This document shows positions 1,432-50,713 of a DNA stretch of 64,000 nucleotides, piece by piece (position 1 is the stretch's first letter; each line of letters opens with the position of its first letter). This stretch comes from Candidatus Kapaibacterium sp. Lineage in GTDB: Bacteria; Bacteroidota; Ignavibacteria; Kapaibacteriales; UBA2268. The notes below the pieces were generated by a model, which was not told where the DNA came from, ran no database searches, and saw only the letters and a program-made list of their open reading frames with translations. A program made the translations under genes and the position numbers. The stretch is from the NCBI GenBank assembly GCA_026390695.1, contig JAPLFL010000128.1:62001-126000 (forward strand), in the 5' to 3' direction.

Positions 1432-4206
1432 TTATTCAATTACAACTAATTCTTCCGGTGCTCTTGATAAATATTTTGCGCCTTGACGAGTGACTTGAAT
1501 ATTGTCTTCCACCCTCATTCCATATTTATCAGGGAAATACACACCCGGCTCAATTGCCAAACAACAGTCTTCAGACACAATTTGATCATCCTTTCTAAAT
1601 GTCAAGAGCGGTGCTTCGTGAGCATCCAAGCCAATTCCATGGCCTAAAGAGTGTTGGAAATAATCTCCGAAACCTGCATTTTGAATAAGACTCCGTGCAG
1701 CATTATCGACTGTTTTTCCATTCATACCGGGTTTAACAATTTTGATTGCCGCCTCCTTAGCCTCAATCAGAAGTTGATATAATGCTCTTTGTTCCTTTGT
1801 GGCTTTACCAATTGCAATAGTTCGAGTAATATCGGAAATAAAGCCATTAACGGTGCATCCAAAGTCCATAATTACAATGTCACCCTTACGAATTTTTCTA
1901 TCTGATGGCTGACCGTGTACTAATCCGCATCTTTCACCACTTACCACAATAATATCGAAAGGGTCACTTTCAGAGCCATATTTACGTGATAAATAAGATA
2001 TTTCCGTGGCTATATCCCGTTCGGTTTTCCCTGGTTGAATAAATTTCAAAATTTCTTCATATACTTTCAGTGCAATATCAACGGCTTTTTGAATAAAATA
2101 AACTTCTTCGGGAGCCTTAGGAACCATAAAGCGAGAAACTTCATTAGAAGCAGGTTTGAATTTAATCGGTCTGATAAAATTTCTGATGTCAACAGCATCT
2201 GAATATGGCATTTTATCAGCTTCAAAAGCCATAGATTCTATTGTAGAGAATACACCCGCCCTAATTCCGTAATCCCATACATCACGGGTAATATGCACTT
2301 CAAAATTAGGTAAATTGAAAAGTTCAGTTTTTACTTGTTCTTCATAGCGATCATCTGTGAAAATTATTATTCTTTCATTTTGAATGAACAGAGTAGCAGC
2401 AGATCCTGAAAATCCTGTCAGGTAGCGAATATTTGGCAGGTAACTGATAACGAGAGTATCAACCTTTAGTTCACCTGCTGTGAATCTCAATTGTTCCAAT
2501 CTTTTATCAATAATTTTTGAGTAAGTTCCGGTTGTATCAATTGAAACCATTTTTTGTTCTAATTTAACAAAACTCTGTGGCTCTCTAACTTTTTTGGGTG
2601 TCTCTCGTTTTATTTCGGATTTATCTTCAGATTCGGGATCAATATTTTCACTTGGAGAACCTAATGAAGTTTCAACATTTATCTCAGGTGCAATTGTTTC
2701 CTCAATAATTGGCTGTGGTTCTGCACTAACTGGTGATTCGATCTCAACTGTGTCGTTTATTATTTTTCCTTTTTTTTGCTTTTTAGGTTCAATTTTTTCC
2801 TGCTCAATTATTTCAATAGCCGGTGTTTCAATTTTTTCAACAATAGTATCTTGTTTCGCAATTTTCTTAGTTCCAGTCTTTGATTCCGGTATCTGAACTT
2901 CTGCTTGAATAGGAATTTCAATTTTTTTATTATCAGAAACTTTTAACTCCGTTTTTTGAGATATGGTTTCAGTTTTAGCTTTGGTTTTTGTTTGAGTTTC
3001 TTGAACTTTTATTGTGGCATTTGTCGCAGCTTTTGATGGCTTATCTTCTAAAACAACATCAGCCTTTTTTTCAATATTTTTTGCAACTGGTTTAATTGGT
3101 TTTTCTTCTACCTTTGCAACTGGCTTTTTCTCTGGAACTTTCACAACTGGCTTAGATACTGGTTTAGCTGCTGGTACTACTACCTTGGCTTCCGGGTTCT
3201 TTTCTGTTACTTTCGATATTGGCTTAGATACTGGTTTAGCTGCTGGTACTACTACCTTGGCTTCTGGTTTCTTTTCTGGAACTTTCGTTACTGGCTTAGA
3301 TACTGGTTTAGCTGCTGGTACTACTACCTTGGCTTCCGGTTTCTTCTCTGGGACTTTCGTTAATGGCTTAGATACTGGTTTAGCTGCTGGTACTACTACC
3401 TTGGCTTCCGGTTTCTTCTCTGGAACTTTCGATACTGGCTTGGACACTGGTTTAGTTGCTTGAACAACAACTTTAACTGCCGGTTTCTTTTCCGGGACTT
3501 TCGTTACCGGCTTAGATACTGGTTTAGCTGCTGGCACTTCTACCTTTGCAACTGGCTTTTTCTCAGGAACTTTCACCACTGGCTTAGATACTGGTTTAGC
3601 TGCTGGTACTACTACCTTGGCTTCCGGTTTCTTTTCTGGGACTTTCGTTACTGGCTTAGATACTGGTTTAGTTGCTTGAACAACAACTTTAATTGCCGGT
3701 TTCTTTTCCGGGACTTTCGTTACTGGCTTAGATACTGGTTTAGCTGCTGGTACTACTACCTTGGCTTCTGGTTTCTTTACTGTGACTTTCGATATTGTCT
3801 TGGACACTGGTTTAGTTGCTTGAACAACAACTTTAACTGCCGGTTTTTTTTCTGGGACTTTCGTTACTGGCTTGGCCACTGGTTTTGTGGGTTTTACTTC
3901 TACTTTTACTACCGGTTTCTTTTCTGAGACTTGCGTTACTGGTTTAGTAATCTTTACATCCTTTTTATCAATCGGTGCTTTAATTGCTGATTTTGGATTA
4001 ATAATAGCAGCATTATTAACCTTCTTGGAGACTGGTATTGGTGCATTTTTTTTGGAATTGTTAGAACCAATAACAGATGTAGATTTAGCCGCTACTTTCT
4101 GAGGTTCAGGTTTGATATTTTTAATATTTGAAACCTGTTTTTTATTTGGTTCAGGCTTTGATGAAACTTTGGGAGATATTCCCTTGGATTTTGAATTGAT
4201 AGCCAT
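1432..4206 (-). CDS. Aminopeptidase P-like M24 peptidase with a long Lys/Pro/Val repeat N-terminus
   Basis: This 924-residue protein joins two very different parts. Residues 1 to about 560 are low-complexity and charged, with a tandem array of 24-residue units (KPVSKPVTKVPEKKPEAKVVVPAA) at 88-379 and then a Glu/Lys-rich linker. Residues from about 560 to the end are a complete Xaa-Pro aminopeptidase: a creatinase-type N-domain (VDTLVISYLPNIRYLTGFSG) and an M24 pita-bread domain. The five metal ligands are present: Asp781 (MDFG), Asp792 (SDITRT), His856 (GHGIG), Glu886 (AIEPG) and Glu900 (RVED). The usual family length is about 360 residues, so the N-terminal part is extra. The ATG has AAGGAAA before it, and the frame is open throughout. 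The enzyme removes an N-terminal residue ahead of proline. There is no signal peptide. The tail looks like a basic, extended Pro-rich linker; its role is unknown. Confidence 0.85.
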   Translation of the reverse strand: MAINSKSKGISPKVSSKPEPNKKQVSNIKNIKPEPQKVAAKSTSVIGSNNSKKNAPIPVSKKVNNAAIINPKSAIKAPIDKKDVKITKPVTQVSEKKPVVKVEVKPTKPVAKPVTKVPEKKPAVKVVVQATKPVSKTISKVTVKKPEAKVVVPAAKPVSKPVTKVPEKKPAIKVVVQATKPVSKPVTKVPEKKPEAKVVVPAAKPVSKPVVKVPEKKPVAKVEVPAAKPVSKPVTKVPEKKPAVKVVVQATKPVSKPVSKVPEKKPEAKVVVPAAKPVSKPLTKVPEKKPEAKVVVPAAKPVSKPVTKVPEKKPEAKVVVPAAKPVSKPISKVTEKNPEAKVVVPAAKPVSKPVVKVPEKKPVAKVEEKPIKPVAKNIEKKADVVLEDKPSKAATNATIKVQETQTKTKAKTETISQKTELKVSDNKKIEIPIQAEVQIPESKTGTKKIAKQDTIVEKIETPAIEIIEQEKIEPKKQKKGKIINDTVEIESPVSAEPQPIIEETIAPEINVETSLGSPSENIDPESEDKSEIKRETPKKVREPQSFVKLEQKMVSIDTTGTYSKIIDKRLEQLRFTAGELKVDTLVISYLPNIRYLTGFSGSAATLFIQNERIIIFTDDRYEEQVKTELFNLPNFEVHITRDVWDYGIRAGVFSTIESMAFEADKMPYSDAVDIRNFIRPIKFKPASNEVSRFMVPKAPEEVYFIQKAVDIALKVYEEILKFIQPGKTERDIATEISYLSRKYGSESDPFDIIVVSGERCGLVHGQPSDRKIRKGDIVIMDFGCTVNGFISDITRTIAIGKATKEQRALYQLLIEAKEAAIKIVKPGMNGKTVDNAARSLIQNAGFGDYFQHSLGHGIGLDAHEAPLLTFRKDDQIVSEDCCLAIEPGVYFPDKYGMRVEDNIQVTRQGAKYLSRAPEELVVIE
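3070..3945 (-). repeat. 72-bp tandem coding minisatellite (about 12 copies)
   Basis: Within the aminopeptidase gene a 72-base unit repeats about twelve times. It encodes 24-residue copies that vary mainly between KVVVPAA, KVVVQAT and KVEVPAA endings, and between EAK, AVK, AIK and VAK cores. The first copy is shorter (20 residues). Near-identical DNA copies such as GATACTGGTTTAGCTGCTGG recur, so the array is likely to change length by slippage or recombination, and may be mis-assembled from short reads. Confidence 0.92.
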
Positions 4207-4294: not shown

Positions 4295-5767
4295 TTATTT
4301 TGAGAAATAATTCGGAGCTTCCTTAGAGATAACTATGTCGTGAGGATGCGATTCCCGAAGTCCTGCACTTGTAATTCTAACAAACTGACTTTTTTCTTTC
4401 ATTTCATCAATATTCCTACATCCGCAATAGCCCATTGATGCACGCAAACCACCAAGAATTTGAAATATTGTATCGGAAAGTTTTCCTTTGAATGGAACAC
4501 GTCCTTCGATACCTTCAGGAACAAATTTCGAAATCTCAGACTCCATATCCTGAAAATATCTGTCTGCGGAACCCTGTTTCATAGCATCTACTGAGCCCAT
4601 TCCACGATATAGCTTATATGCTCGTCCTTCGTAAATTACTTTGTCACCCGGACTTTCTTCGTGACCGGCAAAAAGGCTGCCAATCATAACAGAATCTGCA
4701 CCTGCTGAAATTGCTTTGGCAATATCACCGGTTTGTTTAATACCACCATCGGCTATAAGAGTTACATCTGATTTGTTTGTTATTTTACTTACATTCATTA
4801 TAGCAGAAAGTTGAGGTACTCCAACCCCGGCTATTATTCTTGTAGTACAAATTGATCCCGGGCCAATTCCGACTTTCAAACCATCAGCTCCGCTATCAAT
4901 TAATGCTTCGGCAGCCTCACTGGTCGCAATATTTCCAGCTATAACCGGAAGATCGGGGAATTGCATTTTAACTTTCCTTACAGCATCAATCACTCCCTTT
5001 GAATGGCCGTGAGCAGTATCAATAAAAATAATATCAACTTCCGATTTATTTAATTCTGCTACTCGTTCCAATAAATCTCCGGAAATACCAACTGCTGCTG
5101 CAACTCGTAATCTTCCTTGTAAATCTTTGCATGAATTCGGAAAATTTTTCTTCTTTTGGATATCTTTAAATGTAATTAAGCCGTGCAGGACGAAGTTTTC
5201 ATCAACAACCGGCAGCTTTTCAATTCTATGATTTTGCAAAAGCCTCTCTGCATCCTCAAAAGTAGTTCCATAAGGTGCAGTATATAAATTTTCTTTTGTC
5301 ATCACATCGGCAATCAATTCTGTATGATCGGGATTAAAGCGAAGGTCGCGATTTGTGATTATTCCAATCAATCGACGATTTTCATCAATAATTGGAATAC
5401 CCGAAATGTGAAATTTGGACATTAGTCCCAGAGCATCTGCCACTGTTTTATCAGCAGTTAGAGTAATCGGATTTCTTATCATCCCACTTTCGGATCGCTT
5501 CACCAAATCGACTTGCTCTGCCTGAGCACGAATTGACATGTTTTTATGAATAACGCCAATACCACCTTCACGGGCCATAGCTCTTGCCATTTCCTCTTCA
5601 GTGACGGTATCCATCGCTGCGCTGATGATAGGAATATTAATGGAAATATTCTTGGTTAGACGTGTCTTAGTAATTGTGTCCTTTGGAAGAACTTCGGAAT
5701 AATCCGGTATTAGCAATACATCATCATAGGTAATACCTGTATAAATAATCTTTTCAAAATCTCTCAT
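4295..5767 (-). CDS. guaB: IMP dehydrogenase
   Basis: Oxidises IMP to XMP with NAD+, the committed step of guanine nucleotide synthesis, in the cytoplasm. The 490-residue product has the full IMPDH architecture: the N-terminal TIM-barrel start ([16 protein letters not shown]), two CBS domains in the middle (about 90-205), the catalytic cysteine loop GPGSICTTR, the IMP-binding GGIKQTGD segment and the flap [12 protein letters not shown]. The ORF track starts at a TTG (5800) with no ribosome site. The ATG at 5767 ([11 protein letters not shown]), preceded by GTGAAGAAT, gives the normal family length and is preferred. It lies in a minus-strand run after cysS and the DUF2520 gene, with a 96-base gap. 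Confidence 0.97.
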
Positions 5768-5863
5768 ATTCTTCACAAAGTTTAATCGGTTTTCTGTCAA
5801 AAAAATTAGTGTATAAACGAATATGGATTTTATATATTGTATTTTATTGGAATAAAATACGAA

Positions 5864-16733: not shown

Positions 16734-17660
16734 ATGAAAACCATATTTACATCTGCACTGATTCTAAGTTTTTTAATCCATTTTACATTATATTCTCAAT
16801 CCGAGAAGGTAGCAAATTATCTTCAAATGGTTGCATTAGGAAAAATTGATCAAGTTAAATCCGAACTTCCCGACTTGCTTGCTGAATATCCTGACGATCC
16901 GGGAGTCATGCTTTTGCATGCTTCGGTTATTGAAGATGCATCCAGAGCAGTTGATATTTATAAAAAAATTGTTAAAAATTATCCAAATTCCGAATGGGCT
17001 GATGATGCTTTATGGCGTATAATCCAGTACTGCGCTATATCCGGTGATATAGAGCAAGCTAAAACAGAATTACGTCACTTTCGTGATAATTACCCAAGTT
17101 CACCATTTTTAGCTCCATCCAATGATATTGTCCGTACTGCTTTGGGAATAAACAAAAGCAAGAATACTGATCGACCCAAACTTTCGGTAAATGATAAAAA
17201 AGTCAGCGATAAGACAGATTCTGAAACTTCAACAAAACTAAAAACTTCAAAAAAAGATAGCCCTGTAAAAGAAGAAAAAACTAAAATAGAAAGCTCTGAT
17301 AATGAAGATTCTGAATCAGACGGTATTGAGCCTAACAATTTGAATAACAAGAATACTCAAAAAGTTAGCGAAAAAATCACACCTGAGAAGCATGCTGATG
17401 ATAAAGAAGAAGTGGCTGCAGAACCAACTGGATTCGGCTTACAGGTAGGAATTTATAAATCACGCGAATCCGCTGAATCCGAGCGTGACAAATATACTAA
17501 GATGCGCTTCCGTACAGAAATTCTCGAAAAGAAAATTGGGATTGAAAAAATGTATGCTGTAATTGTCGGACATTATTCAAGCAAAGCTTATGCAAACACT
17601 GCCAGACTGAACGTGAAACAGCACTGTGACTGCGATCCGATAATAACTCTTCTCCCCTGA
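16734..17660 (+). CDS. Exported TPR and SPOR domain protein
   Basis: A 308-residue envelope protein. A signal peptide (MKTIFTSALILSFLIHFTLYSQ) is followed by TPR-like helices (DDPGVMLLHASVIEDASRAVDIYKKIVKNYPNSEWADDALWRI), as in YbgF/CpoB-type periplasmic proteins. A Lys/Ser/Glu-rich linker of about 100 residues follows. The C-terminal SPOR domain (GFGLQVGIYKSRESAESERDKY..YAVIVGHYSSKAYANTA) binds denuded septal peptidoglycan in characterised members. A role in cell division or wall remodelling is inferred from that. The start is well supported by the CGGGGGGA ribosome site and an upstream -7 element. It ends at a strong terminator shared with the convergent susD gene. Confidence 0.85.
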   Translation: MKTIFTSALILSFLIHFTLYSQSEKVANYLQMVALGKIDQVKSELPDLLAEYPDDPGVMLLHASVIEDASRAVDIYKKIVKNYPNSEWADDALWRIIQYCAISGDIEQAKTELRHFRDNYPSSPFLAPSNDIVRTALGINKSKNTDRPKLSVNDKKVSDKTDSETSTKLKTSKKDSPVKEEKTKIESSDNEDSESDGIEPNNLNNKNTQKVSEKITPEKHADDKEEVAAEPTGFGLQVGIYKSRESAESERDKYTKMRFRTEILEKKIGIEKMYAVIVGHYSSKAYANTARLNVKQHCDCDPIITLLP

Positions 17661-39074: not shown

Positions 39075-39818
39075 ATGAATCTTAAAGGAAAAGTTGCTTT
39101 AATAACCGGCGCCAATGCCGGAATTGGTAATGCTATATTAACTAAATTAGCTGAACTCGGCTGTAATATATCTTTTGTTGACATTGCTCATAATGAGCTA
39201 ACTGAAAATACGATTAAACGGGTTGAGGCTTTAGGTCTGAAATGCAGGTTCTTTCAATCCGATGTTTCTAATTTCCAAGATGCTGAAATTATTATTCAAA
39301 AGATAATTTCAGAATTCGGTAAAATTGATATTTTGGTTAATAATGCAGGTATTAATAAAGATTCTGTGATTTGGAAAATGACGGAAGAGCAGTGGGACAG
39401 TGTTATTGATGTAAATCTTAAAGGTTATTTTAATTATGTGCGGGCAGTAGCTCCACTTTTTAAAGATCAATGCAACGGAAAAATAGTAAATATTACTTCA
39501 ATTAATGGTTTAAGAGGCAAATTCGGACAATCTAATTATTCTGCGGCAAAGGCCGGTATTATCGGTTTTACTAAAGCTCTTGCAAAAGAATTGGGTAAAT
39601 ACTCAATTAATGTTAATGCGGTTGCACCGGGTATGATTAATACGGATATGATGAAAAATATTCCTGAAGCAGCTCGCACGGCTGCATTGCAAGAAACTGT
39701 TCTTAACCGCATTGGCAGCCCGGAAGATATTGCTAATGCAGTTGCATTTTTGTGTAGTGATCTGTCAAAGCACATTACCGGCGAAATTATTAAAGTTGAT
39801 GGTGGGCAGTATATTTAA
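39075..39818 (+). CDS. Short-chain dehydrogenase/reductase, FabG/hydroxyacyl-CoA dehydrogenase-like
   Basis: The 247-residue Rossmann protein has the classical SDR motifs: TGANAGIG for NAD(P) binding, NNAG, the Ser of NITSING, the YSAAK catalytic pair, and PGMINTDM. The sequence is FabG-like throughout. It is the first gene of the benzoyl-CoA reductase run, ahead of a thiolase, and overlaps neither. In this setting a 3-hydroxyacyl-CoA dehydrogenase acting on the ring-opened (pimelyl-CoA-type) intermediates is more likely than fatty-acid synthesis; this is inference. Azoarcus bzd clusters also contain an SDR gene (bzdZ), and equivalence is possible but unproven. The upstream 250 bases are AT-rich, with no clear promoter or hairpin. 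Confidence 0.85.
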   Translation: MNLKGKVALITGANAGIGNAILTKLAELGCNISFVDIAHNELTENTIKRVEALGLKCRFFQSDVSNFQDAEIIIQKIISEFGKIDILVNNAGINKDSVIWKMTEEQWDSVIDVNLKGYFNYVRAVAPLFKDQCNGKIVNITSINGLRGKFGQSNYSAAKAGIIGFTKALAKELGKYSINVNAVAPGMINTDMMKNIPEAARTAALQETVLNRIGSPEDIANAVAFLCSDLSKHITGEIIKVDGGQYI

Positions 39819-39849
39819 TGAAATGTTTTATGTTGAAAGTTACGGGTTA

Positions 39850-41040
39850 ATGAATATAAATGACATAGTTGCTGTTGTGGCTGTTAGAACACCAATGGGA
39901 AAATTTGGCGGCATACTTAGAGGTATGGAGTCTTATGATATTGGAGCAGTGGCTATAAGAGAAGCAGTAAAAAGATCAGGTGAACTTGGCAATAAAATAG
40001 ATGAAGTAATTCTTGGATCTTGCCGCCAGGCTGGTAATGGCCCGAATCCAGCACGTACAGCTTCTGTTCGTGGTGGTATAGACATAACTGTACCTGTTTA
40101 TACCATTAATATGGCATGCCCCTCAGGAATGAAAGCAATTCATTTAGCTTCTCAGGCGATAAGGCTGGGTGAGGCTCAGACAGTGCTTGCCGGTGGATTT
40201 GAAAGTATGAGTAACATTCCATACTTACTTAAAAATGCACGATGGGAAGGTTTTAAAATGGGAAATAAAACCCTCGAAGATGGATGGAGCGATAGTATAG
40301 ATCCGCTTATTTCAATGGGAATGGGTGAAACAGCAGAGAATTTATTTGATAAATATAATATCTCTCGGTTTGAACAGGATGAATTTGCATGTAGTAGTCA
40401 TAATAAAGCCGCTTTAGCTCAATCAAACGGTTATTTTAACGAAGAAATTACACCTATAACAATTTCAGGAAATGCTAAAAAACCTGATATTATTTTTGAA
40501 AAAGATGAAACAATAAGATATGATGCCGATATTGAGAAAATGTCAAAACTTCAGCCATCATTTCGTAAGAATGGGACTGTAACAGCAGGAAATGCCTGTG
40601 GATTAAGTGATGGAGCGGTTGCAATTGTTTTAACAAGCAGACAGAATGCAATTAACTTCGGACTAAAGCCATTATTTTCAATTATATCTTATTCCGAAAC
40701 TGCTGTTGATCCTTCCACAATGGGCGAGGGTCCTGCTCTTTCAATACCTCTTGCTTTAAAAAAAGTAAACATGAATCTTGATGATATAGATTTGATCGAA
40801 GTAAATGAAGCTTTCGCTATTCAAGTACTCGCTAACGAACGTGAGTTAAAGTGGGATAGAAGCAAGTTAAATGTAAATGGTGGAGCAATAGCATTAGGTC
40901 ATCCTACTGGAATTAGCGGAGCCAGAATAGTTACTACTCTGTATTATGCTTTGAAAAGAATTGATGCGAATATTGGTATTGCATCAATATGTGGCGGTGG
41001 TGGTGTTACAAGCGCAATTATTATTAAAAGGGAATCTTAA
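39850..41040 (+). CDS. Thiolase (acetyl-CoA acyltransferase family)
   Basis: The track ORF starts inside the SDR gene, but the family N-terminus (DIVAVVAVRTPMGKFGG) fits the ATG at 39850, giving 396 residues. Three thiolase active-site regions are present: nucleophile Cys90 in INMACPSGMKAIH, the histidine in NGGAIALGHPTGISGARI, and the C-terminal cysteine in ASICGGGGVTSAI. The first motif has proline after the cysteine (CPSG) where CGSG or CASG is normal. The enzyme would cleave a 3-oxoacyl-CoA with CoA, giving acetyl-CoA. Together with the SDR it suits the last beta-oxidation steps after ring cleavage. It lies 48 bases before bzdN. Confidence 0.9.
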   Translation: MNINDIVAVVAVRTPMGKFGGILRGMESYDIGAVAIREAVKRSGELGNKIDEVILGSCRQAGNGPNPARTASVRGGIDITVPVYTINMACPSGMKAIHLASQAIRLGEAQTVLAGGFESMSNIPYLLKNARWEGFKMGNKTLEDGWSDSIDPLISMGMGETAENLFDKYNISRFEQDEFACSSHNKAALAQSNGYFNEEITPITISGNAKKPDIIFEKDETIRYDADIEKMSKLQPSFRKNGTVTAGNACGLSDGAVAIVLTSRQNAINFGLKPLFSIISYSETAVDPSTMGEGPALSIPLALKKVNMNLDDIDLIEVNEAFAIQVLANERELKWDRSKLNVNGGAIALGHPTGISGARIVTTLYYALKRIDANIGIASICGGGGVTSAIIIKRES

Positions 41041-41088: not shown

Positions 41089-42219
41089 ATGATTACTCAA
41101 TTCCGTGATTGGGACTTAAACAGACACGCTTATGCAAAAGAATGGAAGGAACGGACAGGCGGAAAGGTTATGGGTTATTTCTGTACTTATGTACCGGAAG
41201 AAATTCTTTATGCAGCTAACATTCTCCCAGTCAGAATTCTTGGCAGCCATGAGCAAAATGATGTGACCGAGCCACATATTTTTGGTATGTTTTGCCCGTT
41301 TTGCCGCGACTGCCTTGCTCAAGGTCTAAAAGGAAGATATGATTATCTCGATGGAATTATGATAGCTCAGTCCTGTCTGCATATTCGTCAGGCTTATACA
41401 AGCTGGACCAAGCATATTCCAATAGATTTCCAATATTATTTACCAATGCCTAATAATGTTCAAAGTCCGCACGCAACGCCATATCTGACCGCTGAATATA
41501 TTCAATTTAAAGAAGCAGTAGAAAAGTGGATTGGCAAAGAGATCACTCCTGATGATCTTCAACGTGGCATTGACATAATGAACGAGAACAGAAGCCTAAT
41601 CCATGAGATTTACAATTATAAGAAAATGGATAATCCACCACTTTCCGGTGAAGAATCAATGGAAGTTGCTATAACTCAGCAAATGGTCGATAAACGCGAG
41701 CATTCAGTGGCAATGCGTAAACTTCTTGATGAAATAGCAGCAGGAGGTAAATCCACGAAAAACACCAGTGGTACTCGTCTAATGATACTTGGAAGTGAAA
41801 ATGATGATATTCCGTTTGTTAGAATGGTTGAATCAGTTAATGGTACTGTTGTCACCGATGATCACTGCATTGGCACACGTTATTTTTGGAATAATGTAGA
41901 ACCCGGAGAAGATTTGATAACTTCCATCGCACAACGTTATATAGACCGCCCTGCATGTCCGAGTAAAGACTGGATCGAACGCACTCGCATTCCTCACATT
42001 CTTTCTATAGCAAAAGAATTTGGAGTCAAGGGAGCAATAGTCATTCAGCAAAAGTTTTGTGATCCGCATGAACTTGATATTCCTGCGATTATCAAATCAT
42101 TAAATGCAAATGATATTAAAACGCTTTTCCTCGAATTTGACGTGACCGTACCTCTTGGTCAGTTTAAAATCAGAGTAGAAGCCTTTTTAGAAATGCTTCA
42201 AGAAGATGATTTATTTTAA
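41089..42219 (+). CDS. bzdN: Benzoyl-CoA reductase, bzd-type, N subunit
   Basis: This 376-residue protein belongs to the 2-hydroxyacyl-CoA dehydratase D-component family. The next three genes and the size of each subunit point to the Azoarcus-type (Bzd) rather than the Thauera-type (Bcr) reductase. N and O form the active-site half that binds the aromatic CoA ester and an iron-sulfur cluster. Cys residues at 32, 69, 72, 75 and 96 (GYFCTYVPEE, GMFCPFCRDC and AQSCLHIRQAYTSW) are candidate ligands. A ribosome site AAAGGAG precedes the ATG. The substrate could be benzoyl-CoA or a hydroxylated or methylated analogue; sequence alone cannot say. Confidence 0.9.
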   Translation: MITQFRDWDLNRHAYAKEWKERTGGKVMGYFCTYVPEEILYAANILPVRILGSHEQNDVTEPHIFGMFCPFCRDCLAQGLKGRYDYLDGIMIAQSCLHIRQAYTSWTKHIPIDFQYYLPMPNNVQSPHATPYLTAEYIQFKEAVEKWIGKEITPDDLQRGIDIMNENRSLIHEIYNYKKMDNPPLSGEESMEVAITQQMVDKREHSVAMRKLLDEIAAGGKSTKNTSGTRLMILGSENDDIPFVRMVESVNGTVVTDDHCIGTRYFWNNVEPGEDLITSIAQRYIDRPACPSKDWIERTRIPHILSIAKEFGVKGAIVIQQKFCDPHELDIPAIIKSLNANDIKTLFLEFDVTVPLGQFKIRVEAFLEMLQEDDLF

Positions 42220-42234
42220 TTAGAAAGGAAAATA

Positions 42235-43545
42235 ATGTCTATACCAACATATAAAACTGAAGCTTTAAAAAGCTGGAATAAAGCAAAAGAAATTCGAAAT
42301 GATTTTTATAAAAGATACCAGAATGCACATGAAAATGGTGGCCTACGTTGGGCTGGCGGTGCTTGGAGCTTTGGAGCCATACCTTGCGGTTTGGGAAGAG
42401 ATATTTTTCCAATAACCGGTGAGCCTTATGCTGCAGGAATTGCATTTAATAAAGAATTTTCATTGCGCTGTCTCGAAGCTACTGAAAGGAAAGGGTATGC
42501 CAGAGATTTGTGTGCTTATATGCGCACCTACTGGGGTTCTATAATTCTTGATGAGTATTTGTACGGTGGAAAATTTCCAAAACCGGATTTTATGTGGCAG
42601 GATCACGTCTGCTGCAGCCACTCAAAGTGGTATCAGGTAGCATCTGAATTAGAAGGTGGAATCCCAACTTACAGTATAGATGTAGCCGTAGGTCCATATA
42701 ACTCGGTAACAGAAAGTAAAATTGATTATATTGTTGCTCAAATGCAAGATGGAATCGAATGGCTTAAAAAAACTACCGGACGTGAATATAATGACGATTT
42801 ACTTATTGAAGCAGTCAATAATGAATGTCGTGCAACATCGGCATGGGCTGAAATCTGTATGTACAATATGGCAAAACCCGCTCCCTTGGATGAGAAAACA
42901 ATGTATTCGCTTTATGTTCTTGGTACTCTTGAAAAACATTCAAAAATTGTCGCAGATTATTATGAGGAATTGCGCGATGAAGTTAAATGGAGAGTTGAAA
43001 ATGGAATATCAGCTACTAAACATGAACGTTGCAGACTAATATCAGATACGCAGCCACCATGGGGATTCTTGGATGTATTCCGTTACCTCGAAGGTTTCGG
43101 AGCTGTTTCAGTCGGTTCTTTATATACATTCGGATTAATCGGAGTATGGGAAGATAAACCTGATGGTACCTGGGGACCACGTACTACTCCGGCTCAAAAG
43201 GGAATTAAAATTGAAACACGCGAGCAAGCTTTACGTATTCTGGCTGACTGGAATCTGAGTAAACCAGAATGGCAGCACTTCTATTCCCCACATCTTAAAT
43301 CAGATATGATGATAAAAATATGCCAGCAATGGCAAGTAGATGGCGTATTGCTGCATTACAACCGTGGATGCGAAGGTTTATCACTCGGTATTGCAGAAAA
43401 CAGGCTTGCCTTAATAGAAGCAGGTTATCCTGTAATGGCGTTTGAAGGCAATATGGGCGACGAACGTGAATTTGATGCAACTAAAACCATGAGCCGCATT
43501 GATTCGTTCATGGAGACTCTTGGAATGAAATTAATTAATCAATAA
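42235..43545 (+). CDS. bzdO: Benzoyl-CoA reductase, bzd-type, O subunit
   Basis: The 436-residue partner of BzdN, also of the HgdB-type dehydratase fold. The N-terminal half has GAWSFGAIPCGLGRDIFPITGEPYAA and the Cys pair in DHVCCSHSKWYQ. The C-terminus has WQVDGVLLHYNRGCEGLSLGIAENRLALIEAGYPVMAFEGNMGDEREFD, in which the GNMGDEREFD region matches the substrate-binding subunit of benzoyl-CoA reductases. Cys51, 79, 93, 126, 127 and the late Cys of RGCEG are possible cluster ligands. It lies 15 bases after bzdN, with GAAAGGAAAA as a ribosome site. Confidence 0.9.
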   Translation: MSIPTYKTEALKSWNKAKEIRNDFYKRYQNAHENGGLRWAGGAWSFGAIPCGLGRDIFPITGEPYAAGIAFNKEFSLRCLEATERKGYARDLCAYMRTYWGSIILDEYLYGGKFPKPDFMWQDHVCCSHSKWYQVASELEGGIPTYSIDVAVGPYNSVTESKIDYIVAQMQDGIEWLKKTTGREYNDDLLIEAVNNECRATSAWAEICMYNMAKPAPLDEKTMYSLYVLGTLEKHSKIVADYYEELRDEVKWRVENGISATKHERCRLISDTQPPWGFLDVFRYLEGFGAVSVGSLYTFGLIGVWEDKPDGTWGPRTTPAQKGIKIETREQALRILADWNLSKPEWQHFYSPHLKSDMMIKICQQWQVDGVLLHYNRGCEGLSLGIAENRLALIEAGYPVMAFEGNMGDEREFDATKTMSRIDSFMETLGMKLINQ

Positions 43546-43555
43546 AGGAGAAATT

Positions 43556-44317
43556 ATGATAAATGTTGGAATTGATCTTGGTGCAAAAAACATCAAAATT
43601 GTTATGGTTAGCAATGGTGAAGTTATAGCCAGAGGCATTACCTTATCAGGTTTTGAAACTAAAGAAAACTCTACTGCACTATTTGACAGTATGCTTCAGG
43701 AGCATGGAATTGCACGGGGAGATATAAGCACCATTACAACTACAGGTAGTGGACGTAAAGCAATTGATTTTGCAACAAACAGCATAACTGAGGTTACTGC
43801 TGCTACAAAAGGTGCTACGACCCTTTTCCCAACTTCACGCTGCGTCATTGATGTAGGTGCTGAAGAAGGCAGATCAATAAGAATTGACCCTAACGGAAAA
43901 ATTATTGATTTTGCACTAAACGAGAAATGCGCTGCAGGAGCAGGTGCATTTATCGAATCAATGGGTCGCGCATTGGAACTTACAGTCGAAACATTTGGGC
44001 CTTTGTCATTAGAATCCGATAAAGAAATCCCAATGAACGCTCAGTGTGCAGTTTTTGCAGAATCGGAAGTTGTATCTCTATTACACTCTAAGACTGAGAA
44101 AAAAGATATTGCTAAAGCCGTGAATGATGCAGTGGCTTCAAGAATTGTATCTATGACCCGCAAAGTTGGCTTTGAAAAAGATATTCAGCTTATCGGTGGA
44201 ATGGCTAAGAATCTTGGGTTTGTTGATTCATTAAAAAGAGCACTTGACTCAGAGTTGATAATTCCTGATTTTCCGGAATTTATCTCAGCTTACGGTGCAG
44301 CAATTTATAATGATTAA
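43556..44317 (+). CDS. bzdP: Benzoyl-CoA reductase ATPase, bzd-type, P subunit
   Basis: A 253-residue ASKHA-fold ATPase of the BcrA/BcrD/BadF/BadG family. It has the first nucleotide motif GIDLGAKNIKIVMVS and TTTGSGRKAI. Two cluster-binding cysteines, Cys125 (NEKCAAGAGAF) and Cys164 (NAQCAVFAESE), hold the [4Fe-4S] shared between ATPase subunits. The phosphate loop reads VIDVGAEEGRSI where the Q partner has ILDMGGQDCKAI, so the two subunits are not equal. With Q it hydrolyses ATP to drive electrons onto N/O. It follows bzdO by 10 bases with AAAGGAGAA before the ATG. Confidence 0.9.
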   Translation: MINVGIDLGAKNIKIVMVSNGEVIARGITLSGFETKENSTALFDSMLQEHGIARGDISTITTTGSGRKAIDFATNSITEVTAATKGATTLFPTSRCVIDVGAEEGRSIRIDPNGKIIDFALNEKCAAGAGAFIESMGRALELTVETFGPLSLESDKEIPMNAQCAVFAESEVVSLLHSKTEKKDIAKAVNDAVASRIVSMTRKVGFEKDIQLIGGMAKNLGFVDSLKRALDSELIIPDFPEFISAYGAAIYND

Positions 44318-44352
44318 ATTAATTTTATATAAACTAATTAAGGAGAAATTTA

Positions 44353-45219
44353 ATGGCAAAAGAGTTTTGGCGTTGGAAAGAATATAATTGGAAAAATGAG
44401 GATATTAGTTGGAAGAACGGTTCTACGATAAGTGCTGGCATTGATGTAGGTTCTGTTAGTTCTCAGGCTGTGATCCTTGTAGATGGGGAATTATACGCTT
44501 ATTCAAGCATGAGAACCGGCTCTGATAGTCCTAAAAGTGCAGAAAATGCAATGAATTGGGCATTAGATGGCACCGAGATGACCATGCAAAATATTCATTA
44601 TGTTGTTGGCACCGGATATGGCCGTGTAAATGTCCCGTTTGCGAATAAAACAATTACTGAAATTGCCTGCCATGCCCGCGGTGCAAATACTATGTATGGG
44701 CCTACAGTTCGCACTATTCTTGACATGGGTGGTCAGGACTGTAAAGCTATCCGCTGTGACGAGAAAGGTAAAGTGACTAACTTTCTAATGAATGATAAAT
44801 GCGCTGCCGGTACTGGTCGCGGAATGGAAGTTTTTGCTGATTTGCTTTCAGTGCCCATTGAGGATATTGGACCTTTATCTTTTGAAGTTGCAGAAGAACC
44901 TCCTCCTGTATCAAGCACCTGTGTGGTTTTTGCAAAGACAGAAGCTACAAGTCTGTTGCGTCAGGGTTGGCCAAAGAATAAGGTTATTGCTTCATATTGC
45001 TCTGCTATGGCTCATCGTGTTGTATCTTTACTTGAAAGAATCAGTGTTGAGAACGATTTTGTTATCACAGGAGGAATCGGCAAAAACATAGGTGTCGTAA
45101 AAAGAATCACTGATGAACTCGGTGCTAATACTCTGCAATCTAAATATGACACTCAGATTGCAGGTGCATTGGGAGCCGCTTTGTTCGGACGTGCATTAGC
45201 TGAAAAAGAGCGTAAATAA
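44353..45219 (+). CDS. bzdQ: Benzoyl-CoA reductase ATPase, bzd-type, Q subunit
   Basis: The larger ATPase subunit (288 residues). It starts with a family-specific extension MAKEFWRWKEYNWKNEDISWK before the ASKHA domain (AGIDVGSVSSQAVILV). The phosphate-2 loop ILDMGGQDCKAIRCDEKG is intact. Cluster cysteines are Cys150 (NDKCAAGTGRGMEVFADLL) and Cys190 (SSTCVVFAKTEATSLL). The short sizes of P and Q (27 and 31 kDa, by length) match BzdP/BzdQ and not BcrA, which is near 48 kDa. The ATG follows TTAAGGAGAAATTTA. It is 35 bases after bzdP and 123 bases before the ferredoxin gene. Confidence 0.9.
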   Translation: MAKEFWRWKEYNWKNEDISWKNGSTISAGIDVGSVSSQAVILVDGELYAYSSMRTGSDSPKSAENAMNWALDGTEMTMQNIHYVVGTGYGRVNVPFANKTITEIACHARGANTMYGPTVRTILDMGGQDCKAIRCDEKGKVTNFLMNDKCAAGTGRGMEVFADLLSVPIEDIGPLSFEVAEEPPPVSSTCVVFAKTEATSLLRQGWPKNKVIASYCSAMAHRVVSLLERISVENDFVITGGIGKNIGVVKRITDELGANTLQSKYDTQIAGALGAALFGRALAEKERK

Positions 45220-45342
45220 TTATTAATTATAAATGATTAATGATTAAAAAAGAAATATAATATCTTCTGACACAAAATTTGGGTTGGGCTTGGAGATACT
45301 AATATTAGAAATTGACAATTTATAATTATAATTGAGGTCGAT

Positions 45343-45630
45343 ATGATAGCAAATTTCGGTTACAAGGACGGATCAGGGGAATTTTATATAGCTATTGATA
45401 CTGATAAGTGCAATGGCTGTGGAGATTGTATCCCTGCCTGTCCATCTCATATCCTTGCTTTAAGAGATAATGAATTTGATCCTATGGCTGATGATCAAAT
45501 GGTTGTAATACTTGATGAGTTTAGGAAAAAAATTAAATATGCTTGTGCTGCTTGTAAGCCAGACCATGCTGTTCACAGCCTTCCGTGCGTTAATGCATGC
45601 GCACCGGTTGCAATCACGCATTCATGGTGA
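45343..45630 (+). CDS. Ferredoxin, BzdM-like
   Basis: A 95-residue iron-sulfur protein that fits the role of electron donor for the reductase. The first motif is a full [4Fe-4S] set, CNGCGDCIPACPSHI. The C-terminal half has CAACKPDHAVHSLPCVNACAP, whose cysteine spacing differs from the usual bacterial 2[4Fe-4S] pattern and might hold a second cluster with an altered ligand arrangement. Azoarcus bzd operons carry bzdM, a ferredoxin gene, right after the subunit genes, so position and type agree. No firm statement on the redox potential is possible. A strong terminator follows 60 bases downstream. The ATG has TTGAGGTCG before it. Confidence 0.75.
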   Translation: MIANFGYKDGSGEFYIAIDTDKCNGCGDCIPACPSHILALRDNEFDPMADDQMVVILDEFRKKIKYACAACKPDHAVHSLPCVNACAPVAITHSW

Positions 45631-45689
45631 GTTAGCAAAGTATTTCAAGATATTTTCTTTTCCCATTATCAAAGTTTTTATAGAAATAG

Positions 45690-45722
45690 ATGGCTGTCAT
45701 CAAGAATGGCAGCCATTTTTTA
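45690..45722 (+). terminator. Rho-independent terminator between the ferredoxin and oxidoreductase genes
   Basis: ATGGCTGTCAT and ATGGCAGCCAT pair as an 11-base stem (one G-U) around CAAGA, followed by TTTTTTAT. It would stop or attenuate transcription of the SDR-to-ferredoxin unit before the BzdV-like gene. Confidence 0.88.
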
Positions 45723-45811
45723 TTTATTTACAACAATTAATTATATAATAAGTGTTAATTAATATTTATTTTATTAAATTCTAATATTTGAAATTTCCAA
45801 TTTTTACTATA

Positions 45812-48370
45812 ATGAATTATATTAACATAAAGATCAATAATAATGCTGTGTCTGTTCCCGAAGGGACTACTATTCTCAATGCAGCTCTGGAAGCCGGTAT
45901 TTATATCCCTGTTCTGTGCAGTCATCCTGACATTGAACATTTTAATACTGTGGAATTGAGTGATTTCATTTATCAAGGGGAAAATAAAATTGTCAATGAT
46001 TCTGATGCGGATATTTCAAATATCAGAGGTTGTGGAGTATGCGTTGTTTGGAATGACAGCACTGGCGCTTTTGTTCCTGCATGCAAAGTAGCTGTTACCG
46101 ATGGCATGGTAATTCAGACAGACAGCGAAACTGTTAGAAAACGTCGTCAGGAAAATTTAGCAAAGATAATGGCAACTCATCCTCATGCTTGTCTTACCTG
46201 CGCTCAGCATGAAGGCTGCATTCCAATGACTGACACTTGTGCTAATAATGTCACCAAAATTGACAGATGCTGCGAATTGCTCAACAGATGCGAGATTCAG
46301 AAAGTAGCTGACTATGTTGGAATCCCGTCGGAAACTCAAAGATATAGATTCAGAGACCTTCCTATTTTAAATGATGATCCTCTTTTCAGGTTCGATTTTA
46401 ATATTTGTATATCCTGTGGTCGCTGTGTTCGGGTTTGTCAGCAAGTTAAGGGAGTTTATGCTCTGGGAGCAGTTATTCAAAATGGTGAGTTTAAAATCGG
46501 TACAACAAAAGGCCCACATTTTAATGATGCCGAATGTCGCTTCTGCGGCTCATGTGTTGAGGTTTGCCCAACAGGAGCATTAACTGATAAAAAATCATAC
46601 CGATTAAAAGACGAAAGCGAATATGTCCCCTGCCGTGCAAATTGTCCCGGAGAGGTTGACATTCCCCAATATGTCAGATTGGTAGCCGAAGGGAATCCCC
46701 AATTATCTGCTGAAGTTATTGCATCTCGGCTTCCTCTTGGATCAATTTTGGGCAAAGTTTGCTTCCATCCTTGTGAAATTCATTGCAAGAGGAATGAAAT
46801 ATCCGAAATATTAGGCTCTAAGCGAGAATCCATCAACATCCGTTTATTAAAAGATTACGCAATGACAAACAGTCAATTGCCAGATCATGAAAAACCTAAC
46901 AACAGAACAAATAAAAAGGTAGCCGTGATAGGCTCTGGGCCTGCCGGATTAACTTCTGCATATTTCCTGGCTTTAAAAGGGCATGATGTTACTATCTTTG
47001 AAAAAGAAACAGAATTAGGCGGAATGATGCGCTATGGTATTCCTCGCTACAGGCTGCCAGCGAGCGTTTTAGATCGAGATATTAATAGAATATTAAGTGC
47101 TGGAATTGAAGTTAAAACAAATCTTGAATTTGGTAAAGATATTGATTTTAATCAAATGAAACAAAGTGGATTTGATGCCATATTTGTAGGTACAGGATTG
47201 TCAAAAAGCAAGAAATTGCAAATTATCGGCTCTGATACTAACTCAGTACTTTGGGGGGTCGATTTTTTAAATCAACTTGCAAAAAATAATTTAGCAGATG
47301 ATTATTTTGTATCGAAAAAAGTAATTGTAATTGGTGGTGGTAACGTTGCTACTGATGCCGCCAGATGTGCTTTAAGACTCAAGGCTGATTTAGTGACTAT
47401 TATTTGTCTTGAACAATTCAATGAAATGCCTGCATATAAGAATGAAATTGATGAATCTTTGGAAGAAGGTATTGAAATTCGCAATGGATGGGGAGTTTCT
47501 GAATTACAGACTCAAAATGGCAGAACCTTTGTAAATCTTCAACTATGTACAAGTGTATTTAATGAGCAAGGATCATTTTCTCCGCAATTTGATAAATCAG
47601 TTACTGATAGCCAAAAATGCGATTATGTAATTTTCTGTATCGGTCAGGAAGCAGATCATGATTATATTTATTCAAATAATATGGATGCAATATTCAATCG
47701 TGGACTGATAATTGCTAATTCTCAATTGCAAGAAACAGCTATCAGAGGAGTTTTTGCAGGTGGTGACATTGTTTCCGGTCCGGCATCGGTAATAGATGCT
47801 CTTGGAGCAGGCAGACGTGCAGCCAAAGCCATAGATTTATTCCTTGGAGGTGATGGTAATATTGAGATCCAAACAAATATTGATAAAAATTTTAAAATGT
47901 TCATTGGAAAAAAGAATGGTTTTGGATCAATCGAAAGAGTGAATTCAGAGCTGTTGCCCCCTGAATTAAGGAAGAATGGTTTTGAGACAGTTGAGGCAGT
48001 GTATAGCCAAGCACAAGCTCTATACGAGGCAGGTAGATGCTTACAGTGTGATCTAAGGCAGCATTTGCGACATAATACTTTGCCACCGGATGATTTTTTA
48101 AAATTTATTGTTGATTCAATCCGAAATTTACCTGAAACAGAAGGTGTTGTCCAACTTATGGACGCAAATAAAGAAGTCTTTTTGATAAAAGGATGTGACA
48201 ATATTAAGAAAACAGTATCCGACTTTTTTAATGATGGCCAGCAAGCTTACTACTTTATTTATGAAGAAGATAAAATGTTCACAAAACGTGAGAGTGAGCT
48301 ACTGCAGCAGTTTTTACAAAAACATGGCAAGATGCCCGATGCAGGCGATGATATGGATGATTTGTTTTAA
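45812..48370 (+). CDS. Fe-S/FAD NAD(P)H:ferredoxin oxidoreductase, BzdV-like
   Basis: An 852-residue redox protein from the ATG at 45812; the track start is a TTG eight codons earlier. Order: a plant-type [2Fe-2S] domain (Cys36, 74, 77, 91; GCGVCVV..PAC), an NuoG-like His-Cys3 segment (HPHACLTCAQHEGC), two [4Fe-4S] motifs (CISCGRCVRVC at 199-209, CRFCGSCVEVC at 242-252), a DPYD-like bridge (CRANCPGEVDIPQYV), a glutamate-synthase small-subunit-like core with FAD (GSGPAG 374-379) and NAD(P) (GGGNVA 508-513) sites, and a C-terminal 90-residue tail. Such proteins can pass electrons from NAD(P)H to ferredoxin. It probably supplies BzdM. It lies behind a terminator, so it may be transcribed separately. 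Confidence 0.82.
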   Translation: MNYINIKINNNAVSVPEGTTILNAALEAGIYIPVLCSHPDIEHFNTVELSDFIYQGENKIVNDSDADISNIRGCGVCVVWNDSTGAFVPACKVAVTDGMVIQTDSETVRKRRQENLAKIMATHPHACLTCAQHEGCIPMTDTCANNVTKIDRCCELLNRCEIQKVADYVGIPSETQRYRFRDLPILNDDPLFRFDFNICISCGRCVRVCQQVKGVYALGAVIQNGEFKIGTTKGPHFNDAECRFCGSCVEVCPTGALTDKKSYRLKDESEYVPCRANCPGEVDIPQYVRLVAEGNPQLSAEVIASRLPLGSILGKVCFHPCEIHCKRNEISEILGSKRESINIRLLKDYAMTNSQLPDHEKPNNRTNKKVAVIGSGPAGLTSAYFLALKGHDVTIFEKETELGGMMRYGIPRYRLPASVLDRDINRILSAGIEVKTNLEFGKDIDFNQMKQSGFDAIFVGTGLSKSKKLQIIGSDTNSVLWGVDFLNQLAKNNLADDYFVSKKVIVIGGGNVATDAARCALRLKADLVTIICLEQFNEMPAYKNEIDESLEEGIEIRNGWGVSELQTQNGRTFVNLQLCTSVFNEQGSFSPQFDKSVTDSQKCDYVIFCIGQEADHDYIYSNNMDAIFNRGLIIANSQLQETAIRGVFAGGDIVSGPASVIDALGAGRRAAKAIDLFLGGDGNIEIQTNIDKNFKMFIGKKNGFGSIERVNSELLPPELRKNGFETVEAVYSQAQALYEAGRCLQCDLRQHLRHNTLPPDDFLKFIVDSIRNLPETEGVVQLMDANKEVFLIKGCDNIKKTVSDFFNDGQQAYYFIYEEDKMFTKRESELLQQFLQKHGKMPDAGDDMDDLF

Positions 48371-48634: not shown

Positions 48635-50713
48635 ATGCTTGATTCTTTATTTAAACCACGTTCAGTAGCGCTGATTGGAGCTTCTACTAAAGAACTTTCC
48701 ATCGGTAATGTCATTATTAAAAATTTACAGAGATTTAATTTTAAGGGACCTATCTATCCTATTAATCCCAAAGCTCCGGAAATTCGTGGAATTAAAGCCT
48801 ATCCTACAATTTTTGATGTGCCGGGCGATATTGATGTGGCCCATATTGTCATTCCACCGGAACAGGTGCCGCAAGCCGTTGAAGATTGTGGTAAAAAAGG
48901 AGTTAAAAATATAATTATTAATACTGCTGGCTTTAAGGAAATGGGTGCTCATGGCGAAGCTTTGCAAGATGATTTTGTTGCTCGTGGTAAAAAATATGGT
49001 GTCAGACTGTTCGGACCTAATTGTCAGGGTATCATCAATACCGATCCCGAATTTAATGCTTATTGCGACTTTACTTTTACATATCCAGAGCCGGGGCATA
49101 TTTCGATCGTTGCTCAGAGTGGCGGAGTTGGTGCATTTATAATGCAAAATTTCTTTGATATTGGAGTTGGAATGAGAATGTATGCTTCCAATGGCAATGC
49201 CTGTGATATTTCAATTCCAGAAATAATGCGCTACTGGGGCAATGATGAAGGGACCCGTGTTATCGTACTTTATATTGAAAGCGTCGATGACCCTAAGAAT
49301 TTTATGGAAATAGCACGTGAAGTTGCTGCCAAAAAGCCAATTCTTGCAATGAGTGCCGGTAGAACAGCAGAGGGTGCTAAAGCCGCAACCTCACATACCG
49401 GAGGCCTTGCAGGTGGGAAATCAATGGAACTTATATTTAAGAAAACTGGTATCCTCTCATTTACAGATGCTCAGGAAATGTGTCAGGCTGCTGTTGCTTT
49501 TGCTTCGCAACCTATTCCAAAGGGTAATCGTGTCGGAATGATCACTAATACCGGTGGACCTGCAATCATTGCAACTGATGAACTTGTTGACGGTGGACTT
49601 GAAATTCCGCCACTATCGCAAGAGGCAGAAGAAAAATTGAAACTTACTATGTTTGCCTCCGCATCAATTAATAATCCTATCGATGTGGTCGCAACTGCCG
49701 GTGCTCCACAGTTTAGAAGCGCTTTGGATGTAATGATGGATGAGGAACAAATTGACAGTGTTTATATTAATTTTGTGACTCCCCCATTTGTTGATTGTCC
49801 TGCTGTAGCACGCGAATTTGCGGAAGTTAGTTTGCAGAGGCGAAAACCCATAGTTTGTAATTATATGACTGATAAAGCTCAATGGACAGAAACAAGCGCT
49901 ATTTTAAAAAGTGGCGGTATTCCTTGTTATGAGTTCCCTGGAACGGCTGCCAAAGCGCTCGCTGCTTTATCACGATATTCCAAAATAAAATCAGCGGATA
50001 ATGGAAAAGTTCAGTCTTTTGATAATATTCATCCTGAAACAGTCAGTGCAATTATTTCTATTGCAAAATCTGAAGGAAGAGAAATGCTCAATGCTGAGGA
50101 AGCATATAATATTTTAGAGGCTTATGGAATTCCTTTTGCACAATGGACTACGGCAGAAAATCTGGCAGATGCAATGGTAGCTTCAGAAAATATAGGTTTC
50201 CCTCTTGTATTAAAGGCTGATTCTCCTGAGATAATTCATAAAAGTGATTCAGGTGGTGTTGCAGTTAATTTAACCAGTCCTGTGGCACTTTCATCCGCAA
50301 TTAATAAAATGAAAGCTAATTTCACTGGTACTAATCTTAAATACTTTCTTCAGAAATATTATGCTGGCGGTAAAGAGCTGATAATCGGAGCTAAAGCCGA
50401 ATCTGGGCTGGGGCATATTATAGTATTTGGTATGGGTGGAATCTTTGTTGAAGTGCTTAAGGATGTAAGTTTTGGTCTTACTCCTATTAGTGATTATGAA
50501 TCTAAAGAAATGATAAATTCAATTAAACTGGCACCTATTTTGCATGGTATCCGCGGGCAAAAGGGTGTTGCTACCGGTTTATTAGCAGAGATTATTGAGC
50601 GAATTTCAGCTTTGGTAACCAATCATCCCGAAATCCAAGAACTTGATCTTAATCCTGTTCTTGCTTTTGAAACCTTTGCTGTTGCCGTTGATGCTCGAAT
50701 TAAAATAAAATAA
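48635..50713 (+). CDS. ADP-forming acyl-CoA synthetase (acetate-CoA ligase, fused alpha-beta type)
   Basis: A 692-residue nucleoside-diphosphate-forming acyl-CoA ligase. Residues 1-130 are the CoA-binding domain (PRSVALIGASTKELSIGNV, FGPNCQGIINTDP). The succinyl-CoA-ligase-like part holds the phospho-histidine His254 in ATSHTGGLAGGKS. The C-terminal ATP-grasp domain has GFPLVLKADSPEIIHKSDSGGVAVNL and ELIIGAKAESGLGHIIVFGMGG. These enzymes convert acyl-CoA + ADP + Pi to acid + ATP + CoA, or the reverse. Beside the reductase genes it could either regain ATP from acetyl-CoA or activate an aromatic acid; I cannot tell which. It has AAGAGGTAATA before the ATG. Confidence 0.92.
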   Translation: MLDSLFKPRSVALIGASTKELSIGNVIIKNLQRFNFKGPIYPINPKAPEIRGIKAYPTIFDVPGDIDVAHIVIPPEQVPQAVEDCGKKGVKNIIINTAGFKEMGAHGEALQDDFVARGKKYGVRLFGPNCQGIINTDPEFNAYCDFTFTYPEPGHISIVAQSGGVGAFIMQNFFDIGVGMRMYASNGNACDISIPEIMRYWGNDEGTRVIVLYIESVDDPKNFMEIAREVAAKKPILAMSAGRTAEGAKAATSHTGGLAGGKSMELIFKKTGILSFTDAQEMCQAAVAFASQPIPKGNRVGMITNTGGPAIIATDELVDGGLEIPPLSQEAEEKLKLTMFASASINNPIDVVATAGAPQFRSALDVMMDEEQIDSVYINFVTPPFVDCPAVAREFAEVSLQRRKPIVCNYMTDKAQWTETSAILKSGGIPCYEFPGTAAKALAALSRYSKIKSADNGKVQSFDNIHPETVSAIISIAKSEGREMLNAEEAYNILEAYGIPFAQWTTAENLADAMVASENIGFPLVLKADSPEIIHKSDSGGVAVNLTSPVALSSAINKMKANFTGTNLKYFLQKYYAGGKELIIGAKAESGLGHIIVFGMGGIFVEVLKDVSFGLTPISDYESKEMINSIKLAPILHGIRGQKGVATGLLAEIIERISALVTNHPEIQELDLNPVLAFETFAVAVDARIKIK

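Follow-up and report, generated by a model that had tools for sequence, protein, structure and literature searches.

An M24B peptidase with a recurrently expanded, predicted disordered lysine-rich N-terminal tail in the Kapaibacteriales family UBA2268

The gene and its enzyme domain

The window, a stretch of 64,000 nucleotides from a contig of Candidatus Kapaibacterium sp., carries on its minus strand a gene (1432..4206) with a single reading frame of 924 residues, which encodes an M24B peptidase behind a long N-terminal tail that is predicted to be disordered. The initial annotation had described a complete M24 enzyme fused in frame to a repeat, and its coordinates, strand and 924-residue frame were all correct. 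The gene for IMP dehydrogenase, guaB (4295..5800, minus strand, PF00478), lies 88 bp upstream. It occupies this place, directly ahead and in the same orientation, in 53 of the 56 loci examined, a set in which three loci belong to other families in the order, and an M24 peptidase was found directly after guaB in nearly all the family genomes examined. A promoter scan of the guaB-peptidase operon gave results at chance level.

Some other features of the window were recorded. A 143-residue ORF at 880-1311 on the plus strand has a His-rich patch, HQHHRH, and no match in Pfam or NCBIfam. The region 41089-48370, also on the plus strand, encodes two HGD-D proteins, two BadF/BadG/BcrA/BcrD ATPases and an 860-residue iron-sulfur/pyridine-nucleotide oxidoreductase, a set like that of class I benzoyl-CoA reductase. 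Nearby are a thiolase-like ORF at 39712-41040 and, at 48635-50713, a protein resembling acyl-CoA synthetases.

The enzyme occupies residues 560-924 (1435..2529, minus strand). In a Pfam profile search of the ORF, Creatinase_N (PF01321, 51.4 bits) covered residues 569-692 and Peptidase_M24 (PF00557, 211.9 bits) residues 705-906, in the correct order and both above the gathering score. With the nearest solved structures, 3q6d and 2zsg, the alignment extended over the entire domain (phmmer E 8e-68, identity 33-34%) and placed all five metal ligands, D781, D792, H856, E886 and E900. Across 45 orthologues H856 and E886 are invariant and D781 and E900 nearly so. The AlphaFold model has pLDDT above 90 for the enzyme, starting at about residue 561, and Foldseek matched it to 3q6d and 2zsg at E of about 1e-40 with TMt of 0.92-0.93 (0.92 for 3q6d), which gives the domain a pita-bread fold.

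By its domains, ligands and modelled fold the enzyme domain is a member of M24B, for which Xaa-Pro cleavage is predicted. M24B Xaa-Pro peptidases remove one residue ahead of a proline at position 2, or cleave Xaa-Pro dipeptides. The domain is closer to Xaa-Pro peptidases of the PepQ/YpdF type (3q6d, 2zsg, 5cnx) than to classical PepP. As it reached no equivalog cut-off in NCBIfam, the name aminopeptidase P that it had been given is only approximate and does not fix the substrate class, but its placing among M24B Xaa-Pro peptidases stands. An identity as a eukaryotic-type MAP2 (M24A) was rejected, TIGR00501 (met_pdase_II) scoring 38.5 bits against a cut-off of 222.65.

Anatomy of the tail

The tail has three parts, all on the minus strand. 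The lead (residues 1-91, 3934..4206) is rich in Lys, Ser and Asn, non-repetitive and predicted to be disordered. It is followed by the array (residues 92-379, 3070..3933), 12 units of 24 residues with the consensus KVPEKKPEAKVVVPAAKPVSKPVT and a PEVK-like composition, and then by the spacer (residues 380-559, 2530..3069), which is rich in Lys, Glu, Ile and Thr, near-neutral and again predicted to be disordered. Tandem Repeats Finder reported a 72-bp period with 11.3 copies, 82% matches and 0% indels at 3131-3947. The 12 copies of the initial annotation are thus present in the phase of the protein, ten of them well preserved (residues 116-355) and the outer two degenerate. The description of the whole 560-residue N-terminus as repeat did not hold, the array accounting for 288 of the 560 residues, about half. 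The regular alternation of two unit types was not found either: with Q for units that have QATKPVSK and P for those that have PAAKPVSK, the order over residues 116-332 is Q,P,Q,P,P,Q,P,P,P,P. An identity matrix also separated two 72-bp subfamilies in the DNA, with the QATKPVSK-type units at residues 116, 164 and 236.

The tail has a net charge of +63 and 22% Lys, its P, E, V and K together make up 61%, and only one residue in 552 is F, W, Y, C or H. Residues 99-390 contain 25% Val, 25% Lys, 18% Pro, 11% Ala and 7.5% Glu, with a net charge of +49 and no aromatic residues. The AlphaFold model shows the tail without secondary structure and with low pLDDT throughout (block means 34-51), and every part falls on the disordered side of the Uversky boundary, the array narrowly so (0.465 against 0.474). 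When the tail alone was searched against Pfam, with E values up to 10 admitted, the only match was YGGT (E 0.057, below the cut-off), which was taken as chance, as was a weak S8 match in the PDB (E 0.07).

The N-terminus contains neither a signal peptide nor a hydrophobic segment, and a SusC/SusD pair within the window suggests a Gram-negative cell of the Bacteroidota type. The teichoic-acid or envelope partner that had been among the earlier proposals for the tail is therefore unlikely.

Translation of the tail

The tail would never be made if translation began at the internal in-frame ATG at 2550 (residue 553), which would give an ordinary enzyme of 372 residues and leave the upstream frame incidental, or if the array were an error of assembly. 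An SD-like site, AAGGAA, is present at the proper spacing before the ATG at 4206, and no such site is found at 2550. The ATG at 4206 is 88 bp past the guaB stop codon, while the gap to a start near 2550 would be about 1.7 kb. In nearly all relatives the gap between guaB and the start of the M24 gene is 13-56 bp (median 19 bp for the short-tailed ones), and in the long-tailed orthologues, which carry their own in-frame tails, it is 18-88 bp when counted to where the long tail begins. Since the start stays close behind guaB, the tail has grown between a fixed start codon and the enzyme domain.

The ten core units of the array differ mostly by synonymous changes (pS 0.35, pN 0.094, pN/pS 0.27), and departures at the first, second and third codon positions number 15, 14 and 42. 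This concentration at third positions indicates that the array is translated and constrained. All other frames are interrupted by stop codons through the array, two of those on the minus strand by only one or two. The longest exact repeat in the array is 60 bp, so short reads of the usual length could span it. With this repeat length, the divergence of the units, the lack of indels and the third-position changes, an artefact of assembly is unlikely, although the copy number may have been collapsed.

Judged from the SD-like site, the guaB spacing, pN/pS and the stops in other frames, the full tail is translated from 4206, and it is highly improbable that the tail is not made. Both grounds on which the initial annotation could have failed, an internal start near 2540 and an assembly artefact, were thus found to be disfavoured.

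Tails of the orthologues

The array was not found elsewhere in its own genome, where no donor gene for the tail was seen either, nor in 53 other genomes of the family (54 searched including its own). Nearly all of these genomes encode the M24 enzyme, and ahead of its domain most orthologues carry 10-20 residues, with MAKK or MSKK as a frequent beginning. These starts of the short relatives may merely reflect A-rich early codons: Lys makes up 11% at residues 2-16 against 7% overall. In 11 of 52 family orthologues the tail is Lys-rich and reaches 50 residues or more, and a long tail is missing from the other 41. The search for repeat-bearing relatives that had been proposed earlier therefore found Lys-rich tails on the same enzyme, but not this repeat.

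The long tails measure 560, 250, 236, 162, 130, 94, 75, 73, 65, 64 and 52 residues. That of G061 (locus L046, 250 residues) has a 14-residue unit with a 42-bp period repeated 12.5 times, and that of G063 (L047, 130 residues) a 20-residue unit with a 60-bp period repeated 4.1 times; in G005 (L010, 236 residues) no simple repeat was seen. The remainder belong to G016 (162), G031 (94), G062 (75) and four genomes of the group g24 (52-73). All 11 have 22-29% Lys and almost no aromatic residues, all lie on the disordered side of the Uversky boundary, and their sequences are unrelated. Their net charge spans 0 to +63, the next two longest after that of the window being at +40 and +30, and two long tails (L025 and L043) are near neutral, at 0 and +4. 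Most of the other long tails contain only 1-7% Pro. Because no relationship in sequence links the repeat units, the arrays of the different lineages most likely arose separately.

When the tails were mapped on an enzyme-domain tree made with IQ-TREE, whose backbone is unresolved, the long state required five changes, each a gain or a loss, a parsimony count that depends on the 50-residue threshold; at least three of them are forced by strongly supported branches. Some candidate tails were set aside. Long frames beside the M24 gene in three genomes from outside the family (G434, G363 and G080) seem, to judge from their sequence, to be the upstream IMPDH gene read out of frame, and a 58-residue extension at L037 has little Lys and, like its congeners, an alternative start at -11.

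The frequency of such tails was gauged with one arbitrary threshold in samples of 340 kb from the same genome as the window, 164 kb from G061 and 173 kb from G005. In the first, an extended Lys-rich low-complexity stretch of this kind occurred in 1 of 252 ORFs. The only other match is a 308-residue protein (16734-17660, plus strand) with a 72-residue linker rich in Lys, Ser and Glu. The G061 sample gave only IF-2 and the G005 sample only the peptidase tail. The IF-2 of the window's own genome has a separate charged linker without the array repeat.

These observations bear on whether the tail has a function at all. An exposed and tolerant N-terminus might expand by slippage or unequal recombination of Lys, Ala, Pro and Val codons, with selection acting only against stops, frameshifts and aggregation-prone residues. 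In that case the tail would have no specific role. The great variation in length and sequence among relatives, the absence of a long tail from most of them and the occurrence of tandem repeats in three lineages (72, 42 and 60 bp) are all consistent with such growth. The other arrays are also under weaker constraint than that of the window (pN/pS 0.84 at L046 and 0.39 at L047). Nearly neutral growth would not readily explain why long tails recur on this one gene and, one IF-2 apart, not on the other sampled proteins of the same genomes, nor the uniform Lys content with almost no aromatic residues, nor the pN/pS of the window array. Given the range of net charge and the value at L046, it remains the main rival and a serious one, and is quite possibly correct.

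Possible function of the tail

The tail is probably useful to the cell. The reading that we tentatively prefer, with a probability of about 0.45, is that it is a recurrently expanded, disordered electrostatic tether that would hold the peptidase on an intracellular polyanion. The tail has grown by in-frame tandem duplication between the start codon, just past guaB, and the enzyme domain, and the property under selection in common would be a long, flexible, Lys-rich chain without aromatic residues. Bound to a polyanion, it would raise the local concentration of the peptidase, and the near-neutral spacer would hold the enzyme off the bound surface. This reading is suggested by the repeated occurrence of a tail at one site with unrelated Lys-rich sequences. 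Strong polyanion binding cannot be common to all the tails, as two long ones are near neutral. An extended basic spacer that binds polyanions had been proposed in the initial annotation: composition, predicted disorder and the recurrent Lys-rich tails agree with this proposal, and polyanion binding would fit these features.

As partners of such a tether, the ribosome or rRNA would rank above nucleoid DNA or polyphosphate. A peptidase bound to the ribosome would trim Xaa-Pro N-termini at or near translation. It is conceivable, if unlikely, that a ribosome-tethered Xaa-Pro peptidase has evolved repeatedly here, which would extend co-translational N-terminal trimming beyond methionine aminopeptidase and be convergent with MAP2.

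The tail could instead be a passive entropic spacer, bristle or solubility tail, physically like titin PEVK, which keeps the enzyme away from its neighbours or from a bound partner and has no affinity for polyanions. Its disorder, a Pro every few residues and its high content of P, E, V and K would suit this, as would the near-neutral spacer next to the enzyme and the near-neutral tails at L025 and L043. The charges of the three longest tails exceed what a spacer needs, and titin PEVK need not be basic, a cloned PEVKII segment having a charge of -64 (PMC12295887). A purely passive role is thus distinctly unlikely.

It had also been proposed that the Pro-rich tail is a substrate or regulator of its own Xaa-Pro peptidase. 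The family acts on a free N-terminus with Pro at position 2, or on dipeptides, but this N-terminus reads M-A-I-N-S, its prolines are internal, and most of the other long tails are Pro-poor. MAP2, also an M24 enzyme with the pita-bread fold, does shed its charged tail by autoproteolysis (PMC10808355). Even so, the tail as substrate or inhibitor of its own enzyme is a weak idea and the least probable of the readings considered.

The enzyme is of a known class, and what is new is the variant, in which a disordered tail has expanded recurrently. No description of a repeat-tailed bacterial aminopeptidase P was found in the open-access literature. If the tail is selected, the family offers a natural series of tails from 10 to 560 residues, with several independent repeats on the same enzyme at the same operon position, which addresses the evolution of disordered tails and the effect of a polycationic tail on a housekeeping peptidase. 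If growth is neutral, the series gauges the load of tandem repeats that a housekeeping enzyme can bear. The tails at L046, L047 and L010, two of them tandem-repetitive, merit study at the level of the family.

Comparison with known systems

The PepQ/YpdF-type enzymes (3q6d, 2zsg, 5cnx) share the whole enzyme domain, but their chains are of about 350-360 residues and lack a long tail. For the tail itself, the composition of titin PEVK is the simplest comparison, as both have disordered repeats dominated by Pro, Glu, Val and Lys. The tail is Lys-heavy and basic and the likeness would be one of convergent composition only; membership of the PEVK (PPAK) family was rejected, since the tail has no significant Pfam match.

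Lys-rich low-complexity regions of prokaryotes are enriched in nucleic-acid binders (PMC6821194), and in E. coli the protein YihI binds polyP through a disordered terminus rich in Lys (PMC12345225). The histone-H1-like proteins AlgP and PhaF have disordered tails of Lys/Pro/Ala tandem repeats with high positive charge, and the KPAA tail of AlgP binds DNA and organises polyP (PMC9239181). The closest tail to these in composition is that of the G061 orthologue. Their tail is C-terminal, on a non-enzymatic helical protein, and built of another repeat, whereas the tail described here is N-terminal with a 24-residue unit, KVPEKKPEAKVVVPAAKPVSKPVT, and no short repeats of the KPAA type, so that membership of the group was rejected. 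Association with DNA and polyP has been shown for AlgP/PhaF; here the comparison is one of sequence likeness alone.

The nearest parallel in possible mode of action is the eukaryotic methionine aminopeptidase 2, MAP2. It too is an M24 enzyme of pita-bread fold, and its N-terminal extension is flexible and Lys-rich, very variable in length and species-specific in sequence. This charged and structurally unresolved extension recruits the rRNA segment ES27L (PMC10808355). MAP2 belongs to M24A and its extension has pure poly-Lys and poly-acid blocks, whereas the present enzyme is a bacterial M24B member with Creatinase_N, tandem repeats and no such blocks. The comparison is therefore one of how the two might work, and by analogy with MAP2 the tail described here may bind the ribosome.
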